Shown here piece after piece: positions 7,996-17,741 of a stretch of 64,000 nucleotides of DNA. The stretch is from Cylindrotheca closterium (taxonomy: Eukaryota; Bacillariophyta; Bacillariophyceae; Bacillariales; Bacillariaceae): positions 429,889 to 493,888 of the forward strand of contig CAKOGP040002091.1 of assembly GCA_933822405.4 (NCBI GenBank). The letters are read 5' to 3'. The notes below the pieces were generated by a model, which saw only the letters and a list, made by a program, of their open reading frames with translations, ran no database searches and was not told where the DNA came from. Within the stretch, counting starts at the first letter, position 1, and every line of letters begins with the position of its first letter. The translations under genes were made by a program, and so were the position numbers.

Positions 7996-8201
7996 CCGAA
8001 CTAAATTAGTCGTTTACCGCGCCCATTTTTTCTCTCCTATGGAAGAGAGCGTAGCCTGCCATACTACCGGTACGTGTACTGTATGATGGCACGTATTGTG
8101 GCTACTCACGATGATGACCTCCCGTAACCCTACTTTCGGTGGCAAAAAAATAATTTTCAGAACCCTACCTGCGTTTACTTCCGTAATCGAAAGCAACAAT
8201 A

Positions 8202-9885
8202 ATGGTGTTCGATATGTTTCATGAGTCCATTCAGGACAATCTGGACCTCTTCGGACACCTTGCAATGGAGTCTGAAGGCCAAGAACAGCTGAAGTATTTT
8301 CAGAACTTTCAGGTGCGAGGCCCCTCTGACATTGTGTATGGATTGATGCTCATCTGTCATTGTTCTAATCATTCGTTCATCGTTCCTTCATCGTTTCACC
8401 AAATCAGCAATTCTATGAGATTCTTCCCGACGATGGGCGTTTGGAATATGGACGAATCCATACTCGTACCAAAATGTTGTTAGAGACTGTTGATTTGACC
8501 GTTGGTCTTCTTCTTATGAATTCCGACGTAGACGCGGACGCCTTTGCAGATTACAATGTCAGTCCTCTCGACGAGTGGTCCAGAAAAGACTGGAAGGAAT
8601 GCAAGCAAGGCTTGAGCGAGGTCCTCGAGAAGGTCCTTGAGAAAGGAGCCACCGCCGGTATCAATGAAGAGAACGACGAGACTATTGCGGACGACAGGGC
8701 CGCATCTAAGAAATACAACATTGAGAAACTTTGCAGAGGGCTTGACGTCTGTGCACTCCTTGCTCCTTTACGATCTGCTCTCAAGGATCATTTGGTCGGC
8801 AGCGCAAAGAAGGCTAGTCCAACAAGTCCAACGAGAAGCACCCCAAGGAGAGGTACTCCCAAAGTTAGCAGTACAATTATGAACAACTTTCAGTAAGGTT
8901 TTTGTTTTGGTTCGAATGGGAGTATTGGAACAATAATCAAACACCCACACCTTTTCTCACCCTTCAATTCAATATTTACAGCAAAGAAATTGAAAAACTG
9001 GAAGACCCAATTCTCATGAGTGTCTTGAAAGAGTTGGTAATAGAAGATGAAAATTCTGGCGACTTGAAGATGAAGGACATCAAAACTGTCCGCCAAGTAC
9101 TGGACAATGATCAATTAAAAGTGGAACGAATAGCCACCAAGACTATCGAGAAGCTCAAGAGTTGGAATAAAGATATGTTTCCAGACCCTCGGCTATATTC
9201 ATTGCATTTTGGCGAAGATGATGACGAAGATGGCAATGAAGCCGAGGATAGTGACGATGGCGAGGAGGAGGAAGAAGAGACGGAAGATCAGGCTGCCGCA
9301 GTACAAAATCTACGAAGTTCAAGAGCTAGACTCATGGATAGTGTTGACGACCCGCTCGAAGAAGCCGTAGCAGCGGCTTCAAAGGCTTCAACCCCAAGAG
9401 GCGGAAGAAGGGCGGCAACCAAGATTCCAGCTGAACCTGAAGAAGAAGAGGACGTAAAACCCGAAGCAAAAAATTCTTCCTCCAAGAAACGAAAGCGTAA
9501 AGGTGGTGAAGAACTCTTGAAGAAGAAAAAAAGTGCAACACAGATGAGCTTTGATGATGATGATGACGAAGATATTCCCGACCCTTCGGAAGATACTTTG
9601 CTCAGCGACTTGCCCGAGAGGGCAGCTGCTTCCACTCCCAAGAAATCACCCAAGACAAGTCCCAAAAGAACTCAAATCAAGCAATACGCTGGACGTCGTG
9701 CTTGGAACGACCAGGAAAAGAATGCTATTAAGCAAGGCATTCGCGAGTTGGGAACTGGAAAGTGGGCCCAGATCAAGGAAAGGTGGAAGGTTACCTTGCA
9801 GTACCGCACCAGTGGACAAATAAAGGATTGCTATCGAACCATGTTGCGACGAAATGAATTGGGTGATGTCTTCGATACTGTCTAG
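8202..9885 (+). CDS. TRF-like telobox (Myb/SANT) protein, 499 residues
   Basis: Three exons: 8202..8312, 8408..8892 and 8982..9885. The introns are 95 and 89 bp, and the splice phases join cleanly. Residues about 437-489 form a C-terminal single Myb/SANT repeat: RRAWNDQEKNAIKQGIRELG, GKWAQIKERW, then RTSGQIKDCYRTMLRR. The last segment has the shape of the telobox helix 3 (VDLKDKWRT in plant and animal telomere binders). The middle (about 215-435) is acidic and Lys-rich, with a basic patch (SSKKRKRKGG) that could be a nuclear signal. The N-terminal 190 residues are helical and could be a dimerisation region like TRFH, but I cannot show this. The likely role is binding of double-stranded telomeric repeats. 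An ordinary SANT transcription factor is the alternative. Confidence 0.7.
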
Positions 9886-10133
9886 GGAAAAGATTTAGTC
9901 ATTTGACCTGATTGAATGGACCAATCAATCAACAGTTGTCATGTGTCCAAGAAAAAACAAGAGTAAAATAGAGCTGAGTCGATATTTTGATGCTGCTTCT
10001 AATTTGTATAACTGCTTATGAATAATGCATGAAATTTTATTCATCACCCTTGTCGACGAATGATGGATTGTGCAATGATTAAAATAACAACCAGAAATGC
10101 CCCAAAAATAAGGTACAGCTAGCTAGTATTCTC

Positions 10134-10865
10134 TCATCTTATTGCATACTTCCCCGGCTTTTGTTTGCTAACCCACTTACAGAACTTGGCAATGTTTTCA
10201 TCTTGCAGGAGCAAATCAACAGTGCTGTACGACCAGGCCAGTGTCAGGTTGTCATGAGTTTTATGAACATGAGAGTGGCAAGGCCGACAGATATCAGCAG
10301 TTCCGCACATGATTGCTTTGATGGATGATTTCTTCGCGTCTCCCAGCTGATCCAAGAGGTGAATCAAGCCGTCGCCTAGAATCATGGTTGCTTTTTCGAG
10401 GTCCCCCCTTTTCTTGGCTTCTGCAGCATTCCGCAGTTTGACTCCGACTCGCGGCCAAGTCTCCTTGGGGATTAGATGGTGTTTAGTCAGCTTGATGTAC
10501 CTTTCACACATCGGACAATGCCCATCAAACAATGGGAACGAGTCTTCGTCATCAGAGTCTTCGTCGGCAACGTCATTCTCGGAAGCATCTTCTTCTTCCT
10601 CCTCCTCCTCCTCGTCCACTAGAAGCAACTGCTTCAAGAGCAAGTTGGACTCGTCTTCTTCCACACCCAAAACATCTTGCAAAAGACTTTGCCACTCTAA
10701 TATTTCTTCCTCTGCAGGCCGGATAGTTTCGTCGTCCTCAGTTGTCTCCATGAGAATGGGGATTTCTTGATAGACAAGGTCTGCAAGCACTGTGGCTTCG
10801 TCCAAGTCACCACAGTGACCATGTTGCACCAATATACCTGCAAAGTCCTCTCGCCGTAAACTCAT
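10134..10865 (-). CDS. HNH-like zinc-binding protein, 243 residues
   Basis: Single-exon minus-strand gene. Residues about 1-110 are acidic with a run of Asp/Glu encoded by a GAA/GAG microsatellite. The C-terminal half carries an HNH-type metal-binding pattern: CPMCERYI, then TKHHLIPK, and further on ICRPCHSHVHKTHDN. The paired CxxC motifs would hold a structural zinc and the histidines a catalytic metal, as in the HNH superfamily. Similar small HNH proteins occur in fungi and plants with poorly known function. Nuclease activity is therefore inference, and a purely structural zinc role is possible. It is convergent with the telobox gene and divergent from TRAPPC6. Confidence 0.65.
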   Translation of the reverse strand: MSLRREDFAGILVQHGHCGDLDEATVLADLVYQEIPILMETTEDDETIRPAEEEILEWQSLLQDVLGVEEDESNLLLKQLLLVDEEEEEEEEDASENDVADEDSDDEDSFPLFDGHCPMCERYIKLTKHHLIPKETWPRVGVKLRNAAEAKKRGDLEKATMILGDGLIHLLDQLGDAKKSSIKAIMCGTADICRPCHSHVHKTHDNLTLAWSYSTVDLLLQDENIAKFCKWVSKQKPGKYAIR

Positions 10866-11265
10866 AATCCTCGTGCTTTCGTGTCTTCTTTCAAGATACC
10901 TTTTTCAAAATTATGGTGTGTTTGGTTTGTGAGCCATGACATTGGTCACTTCTGAAACGTGCTTATATTCTTTTATATTACTGTTATTGTCTTACCGGTA
11001 TATATTTGGTTGACAGAAATTTGGGTGCGGAATGGATCCGGGTTTCATACAAGGTACTTCGAAAGGCTTTCCAACGATTCAACTTTTGAAACTCGCTGCA
11101 ATGAAACCAAAACCCAAATCCACAAGACTGTCATTGTAGTTCTTATCCCAGTACACGTCTACAGACCCAACAAAACTCACGCAAGTAACACAATCAGAAT
11201 CAACTGACGTGACCAAGAGAGCAGCAGAAATAGACAGGAGGCAGAACAGCCAGAATAAATAACAA
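10866..11265. promoter_or_regulatory. Divergent intergenic region, 400 bp
   Basis: Between the minus-strand HNH-like gene and the plus-strand TRAPPC6 gene. It should contain both promoters. It is AT-rich around 10955-11010. No repeat or RNA gene is recognised. Confidence 0.4.
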
Positions 11266-11820
11266 ATGTCCTATCCAACATCTGTATCCGATGCGGCCAT
11301 GGAATTCCTCATGACTGAGGTTCTACGATACGTGGAAGAATCTACTCCTAAAGAAGGTGAGACTGAAGAGCAAGCAATTTTTGCCAAGGAAATGGCCGCT
11401 GCCAAGATGGAACGCATGGGGTTTTCCGTAGGGTATCGGTTGTGCGAGCGCATGGCTCAAAATCGAACCTTCTCGGCAGGTGGCAAAGATCCAAGCATGG
11501 CCGTGGCTGCAGCTCAATTGGAAGCTGTCAAGTTTTTGTGTAAAGAAATCTGGATGGAAGTTTTCAGAAAGCAAATAGACAAATTGCAAACCAATCACCG
11601 GGGTGTTTTTGTATTGAAGGACATGGAATTAAGGTGGCTGACTCGACTACCACCAAACACCGAGACTGCCCGTGTTACAGCAATCCAGTTATTAGCGTTT
11701 CCCTGTGGAATTATTCGAGGGTGCTTGTCCAACCTTGGCATTCCAGCTGTAGTCAGCTGTGATTTCTTGGCTGATGGTCAAAACATGTCCGCGTGTTCCT
11801 TCAACATTAAGATAAAATAA
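11266..11820 (+). CDS. TRAPPC6: TRAPP complex subunit 6 (Trs33/BET3 family), 184 residues
   Basis: Single-exon gene of the size expected for TRAPPC6/Trs33. Family features are visible: MGFSVGYRLCERMAQNR near residue 50, a central VKFLCKEIWMEVFRKQIDKL, NHRGVFVLKD, and near the end LAFPCGIIRGCLSNLGI. These match the alpha-beta plait of BET3-family proteins. In characterised eukaryotes this subunit heterodimerises with Bet3/TRAPPC3 in the core of TRAPP, the exchange factor for Rab1/Ypt1 in ER-Golgi and Golgi traffic. The product would be cytosolic and peripheral to Golgi membranes. No signal peptide or membrane segment is present. Confidence 0.9.
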   Translation: MSYPTSVSDAAMEFLMTEVLRYVEESTPKEGETEEQAIFAKEMAAAKMERMGFSVGYRLCERMAQNRTFSAGGKDPSMAVAAAQLEAVKFLCKEIWMEVFRKQIDKLQTNHRGVFVLKDMELRWLTRLPPNTETARVTAIQLLAFPCGIIRGCLSNLGIPAVVSCDFLADGQNMSACSFNIKIK

Positions 11821-12295
11821 ACAACATTGATGAGTATTCTCAATTGCAATATGTAAAATAATAATCATGGTACATGCAACACTTTTTCGAAGCTTTATAC
11901 TTATTCTTCAAATCTAAGCAAACAGCATATATCTCACAAGCTGAAATGGACTTGATGTATACTTGCATACAATTTTGCTACCATTTCACAGACAACAGCG
12001 AAAGAGCGGACTATGCTTCAAACACAAAAGTTGCCAATCAAAGAAAAGAGCAGTTCTCCTACGTTTCAAAACTTGCGGTTGATTAGCCATAGCGTTACTT
12101 TTTCGCCTAGATTCCTTCAAGATTGTTCAGCTTGGTCCACCCGAACTCCTTCATCTTGTTCCGAAAAAGCATATTTGAGTTCAAAGCAAGTCTACCTCTT
12201 GCTACCCTCTTACAATGAGAGTCGAAAGCTTGAATCGCTTTGAAAGATCAATGAACACCTCCATTATTCTTTGCTTCTTTTGCCAAAATCATATC
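11821..12295. other. Convergent intergenic region, 475 bp
   Basis: Lies between the 3' ends of TRAPPC6 (plus) and the UBA gene (minus). Only short frames without family features are present. I see no repeat or RNA gene; it is probably 3' untranslated sequence. Confidence 0.5.
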
Positions 12296-13120
12296 CTAGT
12301 TCATTTGAAGAGGATACATGTCAAAACTATTGTACATCATTGCCATCATTTCAGGAATGTCTGGGCCCAACTCGGTTGGTGGAAATATTGCTTGGAGGCT
12401 TAAAAGTAACGAAGCAAGATTGGGATGTGGCTTGGCGTATGACCCATCGGCTCCAAGATGAGCCGCCCGTGGATGCGAATCAATCAACCAGTGTGCGCTA
12501 TTGCTACCGGACACTGGTAGGCACACCAAGACTGTTTCAGGAGTTTTGGTGATCAAAACGGCAATATATGCATTAGATTGACCCTGTTGCTCTTGTTGAA
12601 TCCCTTCCAGCAACGCTTGCATGCCCATTGGATGAAAGGAGTCACTACTCAAGATTCCTTGTCGAATACCTCCACGCACTGACAGTGGAAAGCATTTCCC
12701 TTGGTCCTTCTGCAAAACTTCTTCGGCTGACAAATGCTCCACAGGAGATGCAGAAGAAAGCGTTTGGTAATTCTGAACCCCATTCATGATCATGTTTTGC
12801 AAAAATTCAGCATTCAGAGCCACACTACCACCACCAGAGAGTTTAAGAAAGTCTGTCGCCGCCGTCAAGGCGATGCAAGTGCAAGCTGAACGCCCATTGT
12901 CCACACTGTATTGGCTCGTAGGACATACAATCATATCTCCAACATCCGCTGCCGAGGGCGAAGCGGCACTGCTTGAAGACGGAGCTGCTGGAGCTGGAAT
13001 CACACCCAACAAAATGTTGACTGCAGTTTCCACATTTCCATTGGCACTAGCAAGAGCCTGTCGTGAGCTCGGCTCGTCGAAGCCCATTGCAGTGAGTTGC
13101 GAGATATCGCCGCTAGACAT
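12296..13120 (-). CDS. UBA-domain protein with putative papain-like peptidase region, 274 residues
   Basis: Single-exon minus-strand gene. Residues about 5-40 are a UBA domain (ISQLTAMGFDEPSSRQALA, then GNVETAVNILL), a ubiquitin-binding fold. A Ser/Ala/Pro linker follows, then a globular domain (about 65-270). This has a candidate nucleophile in NGRSACTCIAL (near residue 80) and a candidate base in HWLIDSHPR (near residue 215). A Cys followed about 130 residues later by an Asp-Ser-His motif fits a papain-like fold, so a deubiquitinase is a reasonable guess with the UBA recruiting substrate. I do not recognise the exact family. It shares a divergent promoter region with the LYRM7-like gene. 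Confidence 0.6.
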   Translation of the reverse strand: MSSGDISQLTAMGFDEPSSRQALASANGNVETAVNILLGVIPAPAAPSSSSAASPSAADVGDMIVCPTSQYSVDNGRSACTCIALTAATDFLKLSGGGSVALNAEFLQNMIMNGVQNYQTLSSASPVEHLSAEEVLQKDQGKCFPLSVRGGIRQGILSSDSFHPMGMQALLEGIQQEQQGQSNAYIAVLITKTPETVLVCLPVSGSNSAHWLIDSHPRAAHLGADGSYAKPHPNLASLLLSLQAIFPPTELGPDIPEMMAMMYNSFDMYPLQMN

Positions 13121-13418
13121 TATTGACAGAGAGTGAAGATGCGATAGCTGTATTGACTGTCTTGGAGAGTATATGTACGTCTCCAGAGATTTGCGGTCTT
13201 CTATATAGTGGTGAAGATTTTCGAAACGAAATGAAATGAATGAATCATTCGATTCATTCGAATGCTCTTTTCACGGGGAGACGCGATAGACGACAGACGT
13301 TGTTGACCTCATTCTTCATGTCCATTGCACCTACTAGTACGACTGCACTATCAGCTTCCATTTTACTGCTGATAAAGTACCGTTTCACCAAGTAACAAAT
13401 TGATACTTCACTACAACA
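13121..13418. promoter_or_regulatory. Divergent promoter region with a 9 bp palindrome
   Basis: Lies between the UBA gene (minus) and the LYRM7-like gene (plus). The 9 bp arms at 13238-13246 and 13251-13259 (GAATGAATC / GATTCATTC) form a perfect inverted repeat with an ATTC loop. A TATATA-like word is at 13202. A role as a protein-binding site is inference. Confidence 0.4.
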
Positions 13419-13943
13419 ATGTCTGTCGCTAGATCACGAGTATTATCTGGATTCCGTCGGTTGAACAGAGCCCGGATTCAACTGTTCACAGGAGACGATC
13501 ACGCCATTCAAGTTTCCCGCATGCAAATGCGTGCTGAATTTGAACGAAACAAGGCAGTGGCCACATCTGGACCCGAATTTGAAGCAATGGTGGCAGGAAT
13601 TGATGAAGCTGCTGATATGCTCCGTCACGAGATCGTTCGTGGAGACCTCAACGCAGATACTGGACGATATGGTACGTGAAAGAGGTTGCACAGTTTGAAA
13701 AATTTCAATGAATTTTCAGAGAAGGATGTTATAGGTTCATTGTCATGGATTCATTACATCTCAACCTCTCTTTATTCTCTTACACTTCGATTCAAAACAG
13801 ACGTCAAGATCAAGAGAGAGCATGTCAAGGGATCTGACACTGGAGAAACCAAGCCGCAAGTCGAGCCTATCACAGAAGAAACCGTCCGAAGGATGGAGAA
13901 TCCTGGTGCCGTTGAGGTATGCAAATCATCTGGAAAGTCATAA
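13419..13943 (+). CDS. LYRM7/Mzm1-like complex III assembly factor, 131 residues
   Basis: Two exons, 13419..13671 and 13801..13943, with a 129 bp intron (donor gtacgt, acceptor aaacag). The N-terminus has the LYR-type layout: VLSGFRRLNRARIQLFTGDD, then MRAEFERNKAV, then a helix ending LRHEIVRGDLN. This is close in shape to LYRM7/Mzm1, where the motif is also degenerate. In yeast and animals that protein is a mitochondrial-matrix chaperone for the Rieske Fe-S subunit before its insertion into complex III. The C-terminal 45 residues are hydrophilic and not typical of the family. A gtatgc word near 13917 could be an alternative donor, but reading on reaches a stop in frame. Confidence 0.75.
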
Positions 13944-14241
13944 AGTGTTAAGATTGTAGATATGAATACACCTTTGTGCATCCCAGTTTTCTAGTCCGTC
14001 TATTCGTTTGAATCATTATCTTTCTGAGATGAGCTACCATATGGCTTAGCCCTCGAGCTTACGTTCGATCATGAAAGCGCGGGATGTTACAGTGCTCTTC
14101 GCATTTTGGATGCTGAAACATGCAGGAAGCACTAAAAGTCCCAATAGCCCTAGCGCCACTGTCATGTTGCTGTATTGGCATCTGGCATCCATTAGGAAAG
14201 TCTTCTGAGCAGAAGAAAGTCAGAATGGCGNNNNNNNNNNT
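13944..14241. other. Intergenic stretch containing a 10 bp gap
   Basis: 298 bases from the LYRM7-like stop to the first readable codon of the recombinase. The run of N at 14231-14240 interrupts the recombinase upstream part. Between 13944 and 14230 I see no open frame that joins convincingly to the recombinase, so sequence may be missing or rearranged at the gap. Confidence 0.5.
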
Positions 14242-14998
14242 GGTGAACCAGATCCAACCGTAACCTTCCTTGGAAAGACACATTCTGTCTATGATTGGAC
14301 CCGTCTCGGTATCTTCACTGGCTTTCGGGCTAGCGAATATTCTCAAGGCGACTTGGGTCGTGGAAAATTATTCAACAAGATTCCAGACCAACATGACGTT
14401 CCCAAACAGTTCCGAGGCATGCCTCTTGCAATGATGGCTCAGGACTTTCGCTTCTTTGACAAGCACTATGTGTTAATCCCACACAAACATTTGATCACAC
14501 GGTATAAACGTGGTGATGTTGTGTGGCTTGAACTTCGATGGAAATATGATAAGAGCTCTTTCAACTTTGTGAAGAAACGCTTCAAAATCACAGGCCATCC
14601 TATCTACTGTCCCGTGGATGCCGCTGTCTGCATCATTCATCGGTCGACTCTTCTTGGTGTTCCCACCGCCTATCCTGTTGGCGTTTGGGGTTCCAACACC
14701 TCATCTTATCGCTTCTTGAAATCTAGGGAGGTTTCTGAGGTGATGCGCGGTTCGGTTGATATGGCATATCCCGACCCAAACCACTATTTGCGGATTAACC
14801 GCCATCTTATTGTTCCTCATTCCAACCGTGTCACCGCCGCAGTGTGCTTACAAAAAGGTGGAGCCAATAATGACGAAATCGCGTTCCGATTACGCTGGCT
14901 TCCGAGCTCTGTGCCCACCTACCTTCGCGACTGCTTCCAATCTATTGGTGACACGCTTGAGCGAACAATTCAAGGAGCGCTGAAGTTGACATTTTCTT

Positions 14999-15029
<31 letters not shown>

Positions 15030-15030
15030 G
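14242..15030 (+). CDS. Tyrosine recombinase catalytic domain, 5'-truncated at an assembly gap (mobile-element remnant)
   Basis: The frame is open from the first base after the gap to the stop at 15030 (262 residues). The catalytic pattern of tyrosine recombinases is visible. Box I Arg is in LGIFTGFRASEYS (R29, codon at 14326). Box II is HSNR at residues 193-196, followed by GGANNDEIAFRLRW with Trp 219 and SVPTYLRD with Tyr 227. The R-to-W and W-to-Y spacings (23 and 8) resemble lambda integrase (22 and 9). In this superfamily the Tyr attacks DNA and the Arg/His activate it. Eukaryotic carriers include Cryptons and DIRS-like elements; which applies cannot be told without the 5' part. The protein ends in a Ser run from a (TCT)n tract. 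The core-binding domain is missing, so activity is uncertain. Confidence 0.75.
14997..15027 (+). repeat. (TCT)n microsatellite
   Basis: About ten TCT/TCC units encode the polyserine end of the recombinase frame, immediately before its stop. Trinucleotide length variation here would not shift the frame. Confidence 0.9.
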
Positions 15031-15164
15031 ATCCTCCTTTTCCTTCCGACCTTTCTTCCTTTTCCTGCTTTCTTCCTGTTTCTTCTTTGTTTCTTCTATG
15101 GTGCTTCGTGTGTTGTGGTGGTTGGTTGATTACACCATGATCATCAACTTTTGGTAGGCAAGCA

Positions 15165-15201
15165 AGTCTTTGATATTCCGCGAAGCGGAATATCAAAGAC
15201 T
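15165..15201. repeat. Perfect hairpin, 17 bp arms, GAA loop
   Basis: Arms 15165-15181 and 15185-15201 are exact reverse complements around a GAA triloop. The tip reads GCGAAGC, a DNA mini-hairpin known for unusual thermal stability. It lies 135 bp downstream of the recombinase stop. Confidence 0.9.
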
Positions 15202-15204
15202 GGC

Positions 15205-15240
15205 CTTTTGGAACCGCACGCTTCGCGCGCAATCCAAAAG
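15205..15240. repeat. Second hairpin with TTC loop
   Basis: Outer arms CTTTTGGA (15205-15212) and TCCAAAAG (15233-15240) enclose an inner stem CGC-TTC-GCG at 15219-15227. The inner tip is the complement of the GCGAAGC tip of the hairpin three bases to the left, so the two tips are mirror-related. Confidence 0.75.
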
Positions 15241-15335
15241 ACCAGCTTCACACCACAACCCACCAGAGTCACACCAAGAAAGAATCCCTCACGGAAGAAA
15301 CCAGGCGGCAGGCGCCAGTTGGCTATCTTCGATAG

Positions 15336-15448
15336 TGGATGACACTCCAAAATCATTATCCAAATCATTCACGACCATACAGTAGCTACTTGTTTTCACA
15401 AGCTTCCTCATAGCGAACGACAAATGAAACTGAGGACGGGAGACAAAG
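15336..15448. repeat. Direct repeat A, copy 1 (113 bp)
   Basis: Matches 16623-16735 with about four substitutions and no length change. Non-coding as far as I can see. Confidence 0.9.
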
Positions 15449-16046
15449 AATAGATTGATGATGACAGCTGCCGGAGGCAGTTGGCAATTTTGATGTGTTT
15501 TTCTTGTAATCCAACGAGGTGAAACCACAGTGCTGGCGAGCCTTGTTACCCAAAACCGAGCCATCAAATGAAGAAGAAGACAAGATATGAACTGAAGCAG
15601 AGGAAGATACATACGTTTCGCCAACAATCTACCGCTGTGGGGGCTGAAACGAACAAGGTGGATACTACTGGAGTCGGTGTTGCGCGCAAGGGGAATAATA
15701 TTGTCTTGCTATCTCCTTGCTCATTGGCTTCGAAGATCGGCATGAGCGCTGCCGTCCACTGTGCAGACTAAAAGAAATGAGAATATCTGAGATTTCCAGA
15801 CGACGAAGCGGATGGAGGCAAACTCTTGCCAGCAAATGGAATGCGGTTGTTTTGTGAATCTTCTATTTGGCTTGCAAATCAGCATGGGCACTGCCTGTCA
15901 TCAACTGAGCAGAGTGAAAGAAATCAGAACTGGGGAGCTTTCAGGCGAATTATGTGAGATACCAAGAATGCACAACATATGAAGGAACTTGCGACTGTAG
16001 CTGATGCAATACAAGGTTTCAGTGGTAGCAGCAGCAATTGCTTGGC

Positions 16047-16507
16047 GACAATTCTCCAATGATTGATACCTACAAGCCAGCATGCTTCCTCAAAATGGCG
16101 CTCGAAGATGATACATGGAAGAGTACTGTGGAATGTGACAACCCGCCTGGCAAATCAAATATGACGAAAACCTACAGATCATGGCTGAATGTTTGGTGTG
16201 CATTGTTGCTTGTTGCACCGTCACCAGGAATAAGAATGACCAGGTTTCCAGTTGTATCTAGGCAACAACCTCCTCCCATGACATCCACAACAAGGGAGAA
16301 TACAATATATTAACATTCGACTACAAAATTCGATCTAATTCTAAGCCAGTGTAGAGTTGAATTGTCATTGTGGTGAGGTTTGGCTATTTGAATATCGTCG
16401 TCTGCACTTCGATCGTCCAATTCATGTTTAGCGTGAAAGTACTTTGATAGGTCCAAATCCACGCTAAACATTCACGCTAAACAAGGTCACAGCACCGCAC
16501 CGTTGCC
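16047..16507. repeat. Direct repeat B, copy 1 (461 bp)
   Basis: The same length as 16738-17198, with about three visible substitutions (one creates a stop in the short frame inside copy 2). The short frame in it (from 16038 in copy 1) shows no family signal. The right part holds the motif TGTTTAGCGTGAA at 16425-16437 and its reverse complement TTCACGCTAAACA at 16471-16483, plus CACGCTAAACA at 16460-16470. Confidence 0.9.
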
Positions 16508-16575
16508 GTAATGGGCATAAATTCGGTGCTATGACCTTGCACGTAAAACTATTTGGCGGAGCGACCGAAGGTCGC
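16482..16575. repeat. Palindromic cluster at the right end of B copy 1
   Basis: A 16 bp imperfect inverted repeat (one mismatch) pairs 16482-16497 with 16524-16539. A perfect 6 bp stem GCGACC-GAA-GGTCGC follows at 16561-16575, again with a GAA loop. The right arm and the small hairpin lie outside repeat B and are absent after copy 2. Confidence 0.75.
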
Positions 16576-16622
16576 GAGGCCCATGATCAGATGCCCCAAA
16601 GTAACCCGGATATACAAGATGA

Positions 16623-16735
16623 TGGATGACACTACAAAATCGTTAACCAAATCATTCACGACCATACAGTAGCTACTTGTTTTCACAAGCTTCCTCATAG
16701 CGAACGACAAATGAAACTGAGGATGGGAGACAAAG
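16623..16735. repeat. Direct repeat A, copy 2 (113 bp)
   Basis: Second copy of the 113 bp unit at 15336-15448. Here it is followed almost directly (2 bp) by repeat B copy 2, whereas copy 1 is separated from B by 598 bp. Confidence 0.9.
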
Positions 16736-16737
16736 GG

Positions 16738-17198
16738 GACAATTCTCCAATGATTGATACCTACAAGCCAGCATGCTTCCTCAAAATGGCGCTCAAAGAT
16801 GATACATGGAAGAGTACTGTGGAATGTGACAACCCGCCTGGCAAATCAAATATGACGAAAACCTACAGATCATGGCTGAATGTTTGGTGTGCATTGTTGC
16901 TTGTTGCACCGTGACCAGGAATAAGAATGACCAGGTTTCCAGTTGTATCTAGGCAACAACCTCCTCCCATGACATCCACAACAAGGTAGAATACAATATA
17001 TTAACATTCGACTACAAAATTCGATCTAATTCTAAGCCAGTGTAGAGTTGAATTGTCATTGTGGTGAGGTTTGGCTATTTGAATATCGTCGTCTGCACTT
17101 CGATCGTCCAATTCATGTTTAGCGTGAAAGTACTTTGATAGGTCCAAATCCACGCTAAACATTCACGCTAAACAAGGTCACAGCACCGCACCGTTGCC
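16738..17198. repeat. Direct repeat B, copy 2 (461 bp)
   Basis: Nearly identical second copy of 16047-16507. Homology stops abruptly after CCGTTGCC at both 16507 and 17198. Confidence 0.9.
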
Positions 17199-17741
17199 AG
17201 AATGGCGCAAAGATTCTGAATGAACACGAAAGTTCAGCCATTAAACAAATCAGAAACTACTGTACAATTGATTTGAAAAGGACTGCCTCGCACTTTGGTC
17301 ATGACTATCTTACTTGACCAATCCCATTTTGCCAAGTAAAATACATGTATGGTTTAGTAAGGCCCGTCCGACATATCACTGACATCTGTTCTAACTTCAA
17401 CGGAAGGTGTAAGAGCATCATTGAAATTCGATAGTGAGTTTCTTTGTTGTTCAACAGCACATGATTTCTGCTTTCATTCATTGTAATTGCCATGTTGCAG
17501 TTTGTGTTGTTTCTACGACCAGGTTTCCAATGATCAAACCCGTATCAAAATCAAGAATCATGATGCAAATTTAGGTTCTAAGATCTTGTAGTTTCAGACG
17601 ATGTATCTTGTGTTCAATATGAAAGTTGTATTTTACAGTTTAACAGTAGATACTGCATTATTGATTTCTTTCTATTCCCATATGTAAGTGTAGTAGTGTG
17701 CAGTTTGATGTGTAGTGAGTGTAGTGTAGTCCATCCCTCGA

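Follow-up and report, generated by a model that had tools for sequence, protein, structure and literature searches.

The window analyzed here is a stretch of 64,000 nucleotides from the diatom Cylindrotheca closterium (contig CAKOGP040002091.1). It carries, at 14242 to 15030 of the forward strand, an open frame that corresponds to the 3′ part of a tyrosine recombinase (YR) gene. An assembly gap precedes the frame, a spacer and a single copy of a repeat termed B follow it, and the whole is inserted in a separate repeat, R (Table 1). The frame and repeat B are part of a mobile element that is also present in longer form in the same genome.

The tyrosine recombinase frame

The catalytic set of the window frame is complete (R29, K104, H193, R196, W219 and Y227, numbered from 14242), and a fold comparison revealed that the YR catalytic-domain fold matches those of Cre, XerA and lambda Int. 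By its R-K-H-x-x-R-W/H-Y set and its catalytic-domain fold, the frame belongs to the tyrosine recombinase superfamily. The original prediction, which was made from the letters alone, had reached the same identity and had proposed a structure prediction and a search with the Pfam Phage_integrase profile as checks; the fold bears it out, and the profile found no match in the window frame. Pfam detected no family in the window frame or in the 472-amino acid YR frame of the longer C1 copy, and PF00589 (Phage_integrase) was found in only one of the 57 members of the YR alignment (E 0.012). A PF00589 match is a detection aid, and not a defining property of the superfamily. Sequence searches against solved structures, with the single YR sequence and with the YR and reverse transcriptase (RT) alignments, returned nothing relevant. 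Recognition of both YR and RT thus succeeded by fold comparison alone, Pfam and the structure-database sequence searches being unproductive.

A (TCT)n tail had been placed beside the frame. This run lies within the coding frame and encodes serines, and the YR frame of the C1 copy likewise terminates in a serine run.

Table 1. Coordinates of the features at the insertion, given as positions in the window
Feature	Position	Strand	Remarks
Assembly gap of 10 N, presumably concealing the 5′ part of the window copy	14231..14240		real size may differ from 10
3′ part of the YR gene of the element	14242..15030	+	262 codons plus stop; open frame, 86% amino-acid identity to the 472-amino acid YR frame of the C1 copy, fold match
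TTC/TCT run	14994..15026	+	in-frame serine codons of the YR C-terminus, by translation
Spacer from the YR stop to repeat B	15031..15153	+	length about that in the C1 copy (alignment of C1 with the window)
One B repeat, 182 bp	15154..15335	+	95% identical to the B units of full copies; the element's right end coincides with its last base (...CTTCGATAG)
Self-complementary stretch (hairpin) within B	15162..15204	+	inverted match; present in B of other copies too
Right part of repeat R, interrupted by the element	15336..16507	+	R is 1281 bp at L024, with imperfect terminal inverted repeats
Second R copy with internal deletion	16514..17216	+	98% and 96% matches to 16044-16524 and 15336-15448

Element architecture in the full-length copies

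Six near-identical longer copies of the element were found in the same genome. Two of them (C562a and C392) measure 8516 bp, and lengths of 7.8 to 8.5 kb were found for the rest. In these copies a frame for RT and ribonuclease H (RNase H) overlaps the YR frame, and a fold match for RT together with RNase H motifs supports the presence of RT/RNase H next to YR. Self-comparison of the C1 copy gave the repeat order A1-[open reading frames]-B1-A2-B2, with A units of ∼165 bp and B units of 182 bp, and the same order was obtained in all six copies, including the fetched A1 flanks. B1 directly adjoins A2 (CTTCGATAG followed by TCTAACG) in five of the six; the C201 copy has a deletion spanning the B1-A2 junction and a truncated A1. 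In C562c the A units are shortened at both places, and 758 bp beside A1 are absent from C1 and present in the other five copies. The right end is fixed, i.e., all six copies finish with the same bases, and by eye no target-site duplication was visible on either side of the five copies whose ends are complete. The Pfam scans, which missed RT as well, gave no match to rve (DDE integrase), a domain not expected in the DIRS order.

A genome search with the A2-B2 unit gave 68 matches, and 14 loci were fetched, five of which are full copies. Six of the other nine (L045, L047, L048, L050, L052 and L053) consist of A-B alone, either whole or trimmed slightly; L051 combines A with a portion of B, and L046 has an extra partial B. 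At L054 (C24:204005-204578) the A-B unit runs straight into more A-B sequence and may be a tandem of terminal repeats.

Since RT/RNase H and YR frames occur together in an A1-[open reading frames]-B1-A2-B2 arrangement, with fixed ends, no visible target-site duplication and solo A-B remnants, we read the window frame as the 3′ end of the YR gene of a DIRS-order retrotransposon of Ngaro layout, with a probability of about 0.92. The computed support consists of these features, the coding frames and folds, and the near-identity of the copies; the Ngaro label itself rests on the repeat layout and on published descriptions. The guess of a DIRS-like element was right. The suggestion of an undescribed element, in the sense of a new kind, is not supported, as the same genome contains full copies in which RT/RNase H is combined with split direct repeats, a layout of a known type.

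Some observations weigh against this assignment. Neither YR nor RT is detected by Pfam here, unlike in the Ngaro described from Cafeteria burkhardae, for which PF00589 and PF00078 are given (PMC8547959). The Pfam scan of the RT/RNase H frame yielded no usable family, and that of 37 RT proteins yielded scattered weak matches only, the best being an F-box-like match in one of the 37 (E 0.0014). No RT, A1 or A2 is visible in the window copy, whose membership depends on its sister copies; RT/RNase H is unseen there because of the assembly gap. Finally, the ∼3.7 kb from A1 to RT in C562a yielded no recognisable gag-like frame, the longest frame on the element strand there having 142 amino acids. 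In this stretch (L010 6806-10000, L036) a gag gene may be missing, spliced or unrecognised.

Assignment to a PAT-like or another DIRS-order subgroup is doubtful, and would change the label within the order only, leaving the core reading unaffected. Split direct repeats define PAT elements too (PMC4157794), and both Ngaro and PAT-like elements are described in Ectocarpus (PMC12477816). However, a methyltransferase domain, absent in Ngaro, sets DIRS and PAT elements apart in the published accounts (PMC3783388, PMC4157794). Pfam gave no Dam methyltransferase match in the 37 RT proteins, a weak argument as the same scan missed RT, and the RT/RNase H frame continues for only ∼80 residues beyond the RNase H motif ADALSR.

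For the Ngaro layout, a mode of propagation can be proposed from the general model of YR retrotransposons, from which the RNA intermediate, the circle and the strand exchange are inferred for this family. The element would be transcribed, and its own RT/RNase H would copy the RNA. The B1-A2 junction would then supply the sequence needed to complete both ends and to form a double-stranded circle, and YR would cut this circle and join it into genomic DNA by way of a covalent tyrosine linkage, leaving no target-site duplication.

The window copy, repeat R and selection

The window copy, as aligned with the full copies, covers 14247-15335, i.e., the 3′ part of YR and a single B. As far as it is visible it is a relic: it lies inside repeat R, its 5′ part is concealed by the gap, and a single B stands where full copies have B1-A2-B2. 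A2 may have been deleted by recombination between B1 and B2. The earlier description of a remnant with its 5′ part lost in a gap is thus accurate, the 10 N standing directly before the frame. The stable hairpin mentioned with it is real, but is no separate feature, as it forms part of B and recurs in the B of other copies.

The left flank (13930-14230) matches nothing but itself across the genome, and the first 109 bp of the interrupted R, expected to the left of the insertion, are absent from it. The gap is therefore probably longer than 10 bases, unless those bases were lost, and it probably conceals host-side sequence as well; that the Ns are a mere 10-base hole was judged unlikely for the same reason. 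A second, longer gap of 272 N lies at 721-992 of the window.

Repeat R is present, complete or partial, at more than 20 places in the genome, and six of these are 99-100% identical over 1166-1179 bp. At L024 it has imperfect inverted ends, as read by eye, and an 8-bp flanking duplication. Because of its inverted ends, flanking duplication and near-identical copies, R looks like a non-autonomous DNA transposon that was active recently. In the second R copy of the window, the first 109 bp match the left part of other R copies. The "fresh duplications" noted beside the frame are hence real, but belong to this separate repeat family, into which the element inserted. Many R matches start at 15336, which raised the idea that R is specially related to the element end at 15335. 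This idea was dropped, since the exact 17-base junction site is uninterrupted in seven of the 11 fetched R loci, so that the shared break at 15336 is just this insertion; in the other four, which are partial or divergent, the site was not found as written.

A two-exon gene at 13404-13943, just left of the insertion, resembles by eye, from its translation, a small LYR-motif protein. A TPR protein is also encoded in the window, and among the matches listed its nearest named ones are from Nitzschia inconspicua (57%) and a Bacillariaceae bin (56%). Protein matches by themselves would place the host in the Bacillariaceae, perhaps in Cylindrotheca; against that genus, none of the 120 TPR matches listed bears its name.

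Over 1096 aligned columns the C321 copy differs from the window in a single 12-base gap, which probably falls in the TTC/TCT run, and shows no mismatch. The shared stretch is followed in C321 by A2 and part of a second B, and C321 is therefore either a separate insertion or another state of the same locus. In C321, ∼5.8 kb of other sequence (8048-13859; L015, L016) interrupts the RT/RNase H region. The nearest distinguishable sister of the window copy is C374, which is 97.6% identical over 1099 columns and also has a single B. The ratio of nonsynonymous to synonymous change (dN/dS) was 0.133 for the window lineage compared with that of C1 (250 codons). For the window compared with C374 it was 0.79, i.e., near neutral, where changes are few (dN 0.014, dS 0.018). 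Judged from these sequence comparisons, YR was under constraint while the family was active, and the window copy gives no sign of constraint since its split from C374, on few changes.

The absence of such a sign makes domestication, in which the host would have retained the YR frame for a function of its own, very improbable, although the original prediction had raised it. In its favor, the window frame is open and its catalytic residues are complete. Yet C321 carries the same bases and then continues into A2 and part of a second B, the comparison with C374 is near neutral, and the frame leads into a transposon end inside another repeat. The low value against C1 is what selection on an active element leaves. 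We therefore retain the reading of the window copy as a relic of a DIRS-order retrotransposon.

Relatives and known systems

Searches with YR and RT returned 204 and 127 proteins, respectively, most of them derived from metagenomes and transcriptomes. Organism names among the matches listed are confined to Cylindrotheca closterium and C. fusiformis, and the RT of the C223 copy shares 98% identity over 537 residues with a protein of C. closterium. In MMETSP, Transcript_4851 has consecutive entries for RT (m.11525) and YR (m.11526), which suggests that RT and YR can share one transcript. Among the best 120 of the 204 YR matches and the best 120 of the 127 RT matches, no precomputed Pfam domain was present. 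The genome also harbors a second YR family with ∼29-31% identity (C2, C371, C568, C396, C324 and C75; L019, L020); an RT of ∼26% identity is present on C2, C371, C568 and C75, and the C396 frame keeps H, R, W and Y, as judged by eye.

It is possible, and we put it forward tentatively, that the element of the window belongs to a large undescribed lineage of split-repeat YR retrotransposons from diatoms and from the sources of many metagenome contigs, with RT and YR too diverged for Pfam, which may merit a rank beside Ngaro, PAT, DIRS1 and VIPER. Since Pfam misses both RT and YR, annotations of diatom and metagenome data may record too few elements of this sort. Full copies that are nearly identical and have kept both the RT and the YR frame intact point to recent, and perhaps ongoing, activity in a diatom.

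A Crypton, i.e., a DNA transposon with YR as its only enzyme, is hardly tenable. CryptonS, reported in the diatom Phaeodactylum (PMC3212892), likewise encodes a YR, and the window shows YR alone. However, CryptonS lacks RT and is described there as having terminal direct repeats of 5-6 bp, whereas the sister copies of the window element have RT/RNase H and long split direct repeats. The transfer of a phage-like integrase gene from a virus or bacterium into the nucleus is equally remote: the fold is like that of phage and bacterial integrases, but none of the 23 pattern-matching stretches in viral contigs encodes a relative, only one of 46 stretches in the prokaryote genome scan does (32% identity), and diatoms are the only organisms named among the homologues listed. 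That single relative (L055, CAMYLW010000055.1) lies on an 8.5-kb contig in a Desulfobacterota metagenome bin and is possibly a eukaryotic contaminant.

A literature search, which covered titles and abstract openings with few subscription journals among them, found no description of the present family in Cylindrotheca. A term search of PMC3266345 gave no diatom term, and passages of PMC3155517 and PMC13149256 hold nothing on diatom DIRS elements. This particular family may well be undescribed. What is new extends at most to the family, the way it is built in this genome and the failure of Pfam to see it, the DIRS order being already known in diatoms. With the DIRS-order assignment, what looked like a lone recombinase becomes a defined mobile-element family, and no new mechanism is opened.

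In other diatoms, DIRS-order elements are known as counts or pooled percentages in the accounts available: 14 DIRS copies are tabulated for Phaeodactylum tricornutum (PMC5859163), and in Chaetoceros tenuissimus DIRS elements are pooled as Gypsy/DIRS1 (PMC8613185). Ngaro elements are known in brown algae (PMC12477816, PMC3145265), and the Ngaro and PAT-like DIRS elements of Ectocarpus share, by description only, the order of element and the host supergroup with the present family (PMC12477816). The Ngaro of Cafeteria burkhardae, with A1-[open reading frames]-B1A2B2 and solo AB repeats, was compared by its description (PMC8547959). The present element is longer (8.5 kb versus ∼6 kb), Pfam misses its RT and YR, and no putative gag was found in it; in both, a stramenopile host carries split direct repeats, RT-RNase H and YR frames, and solo AB units.
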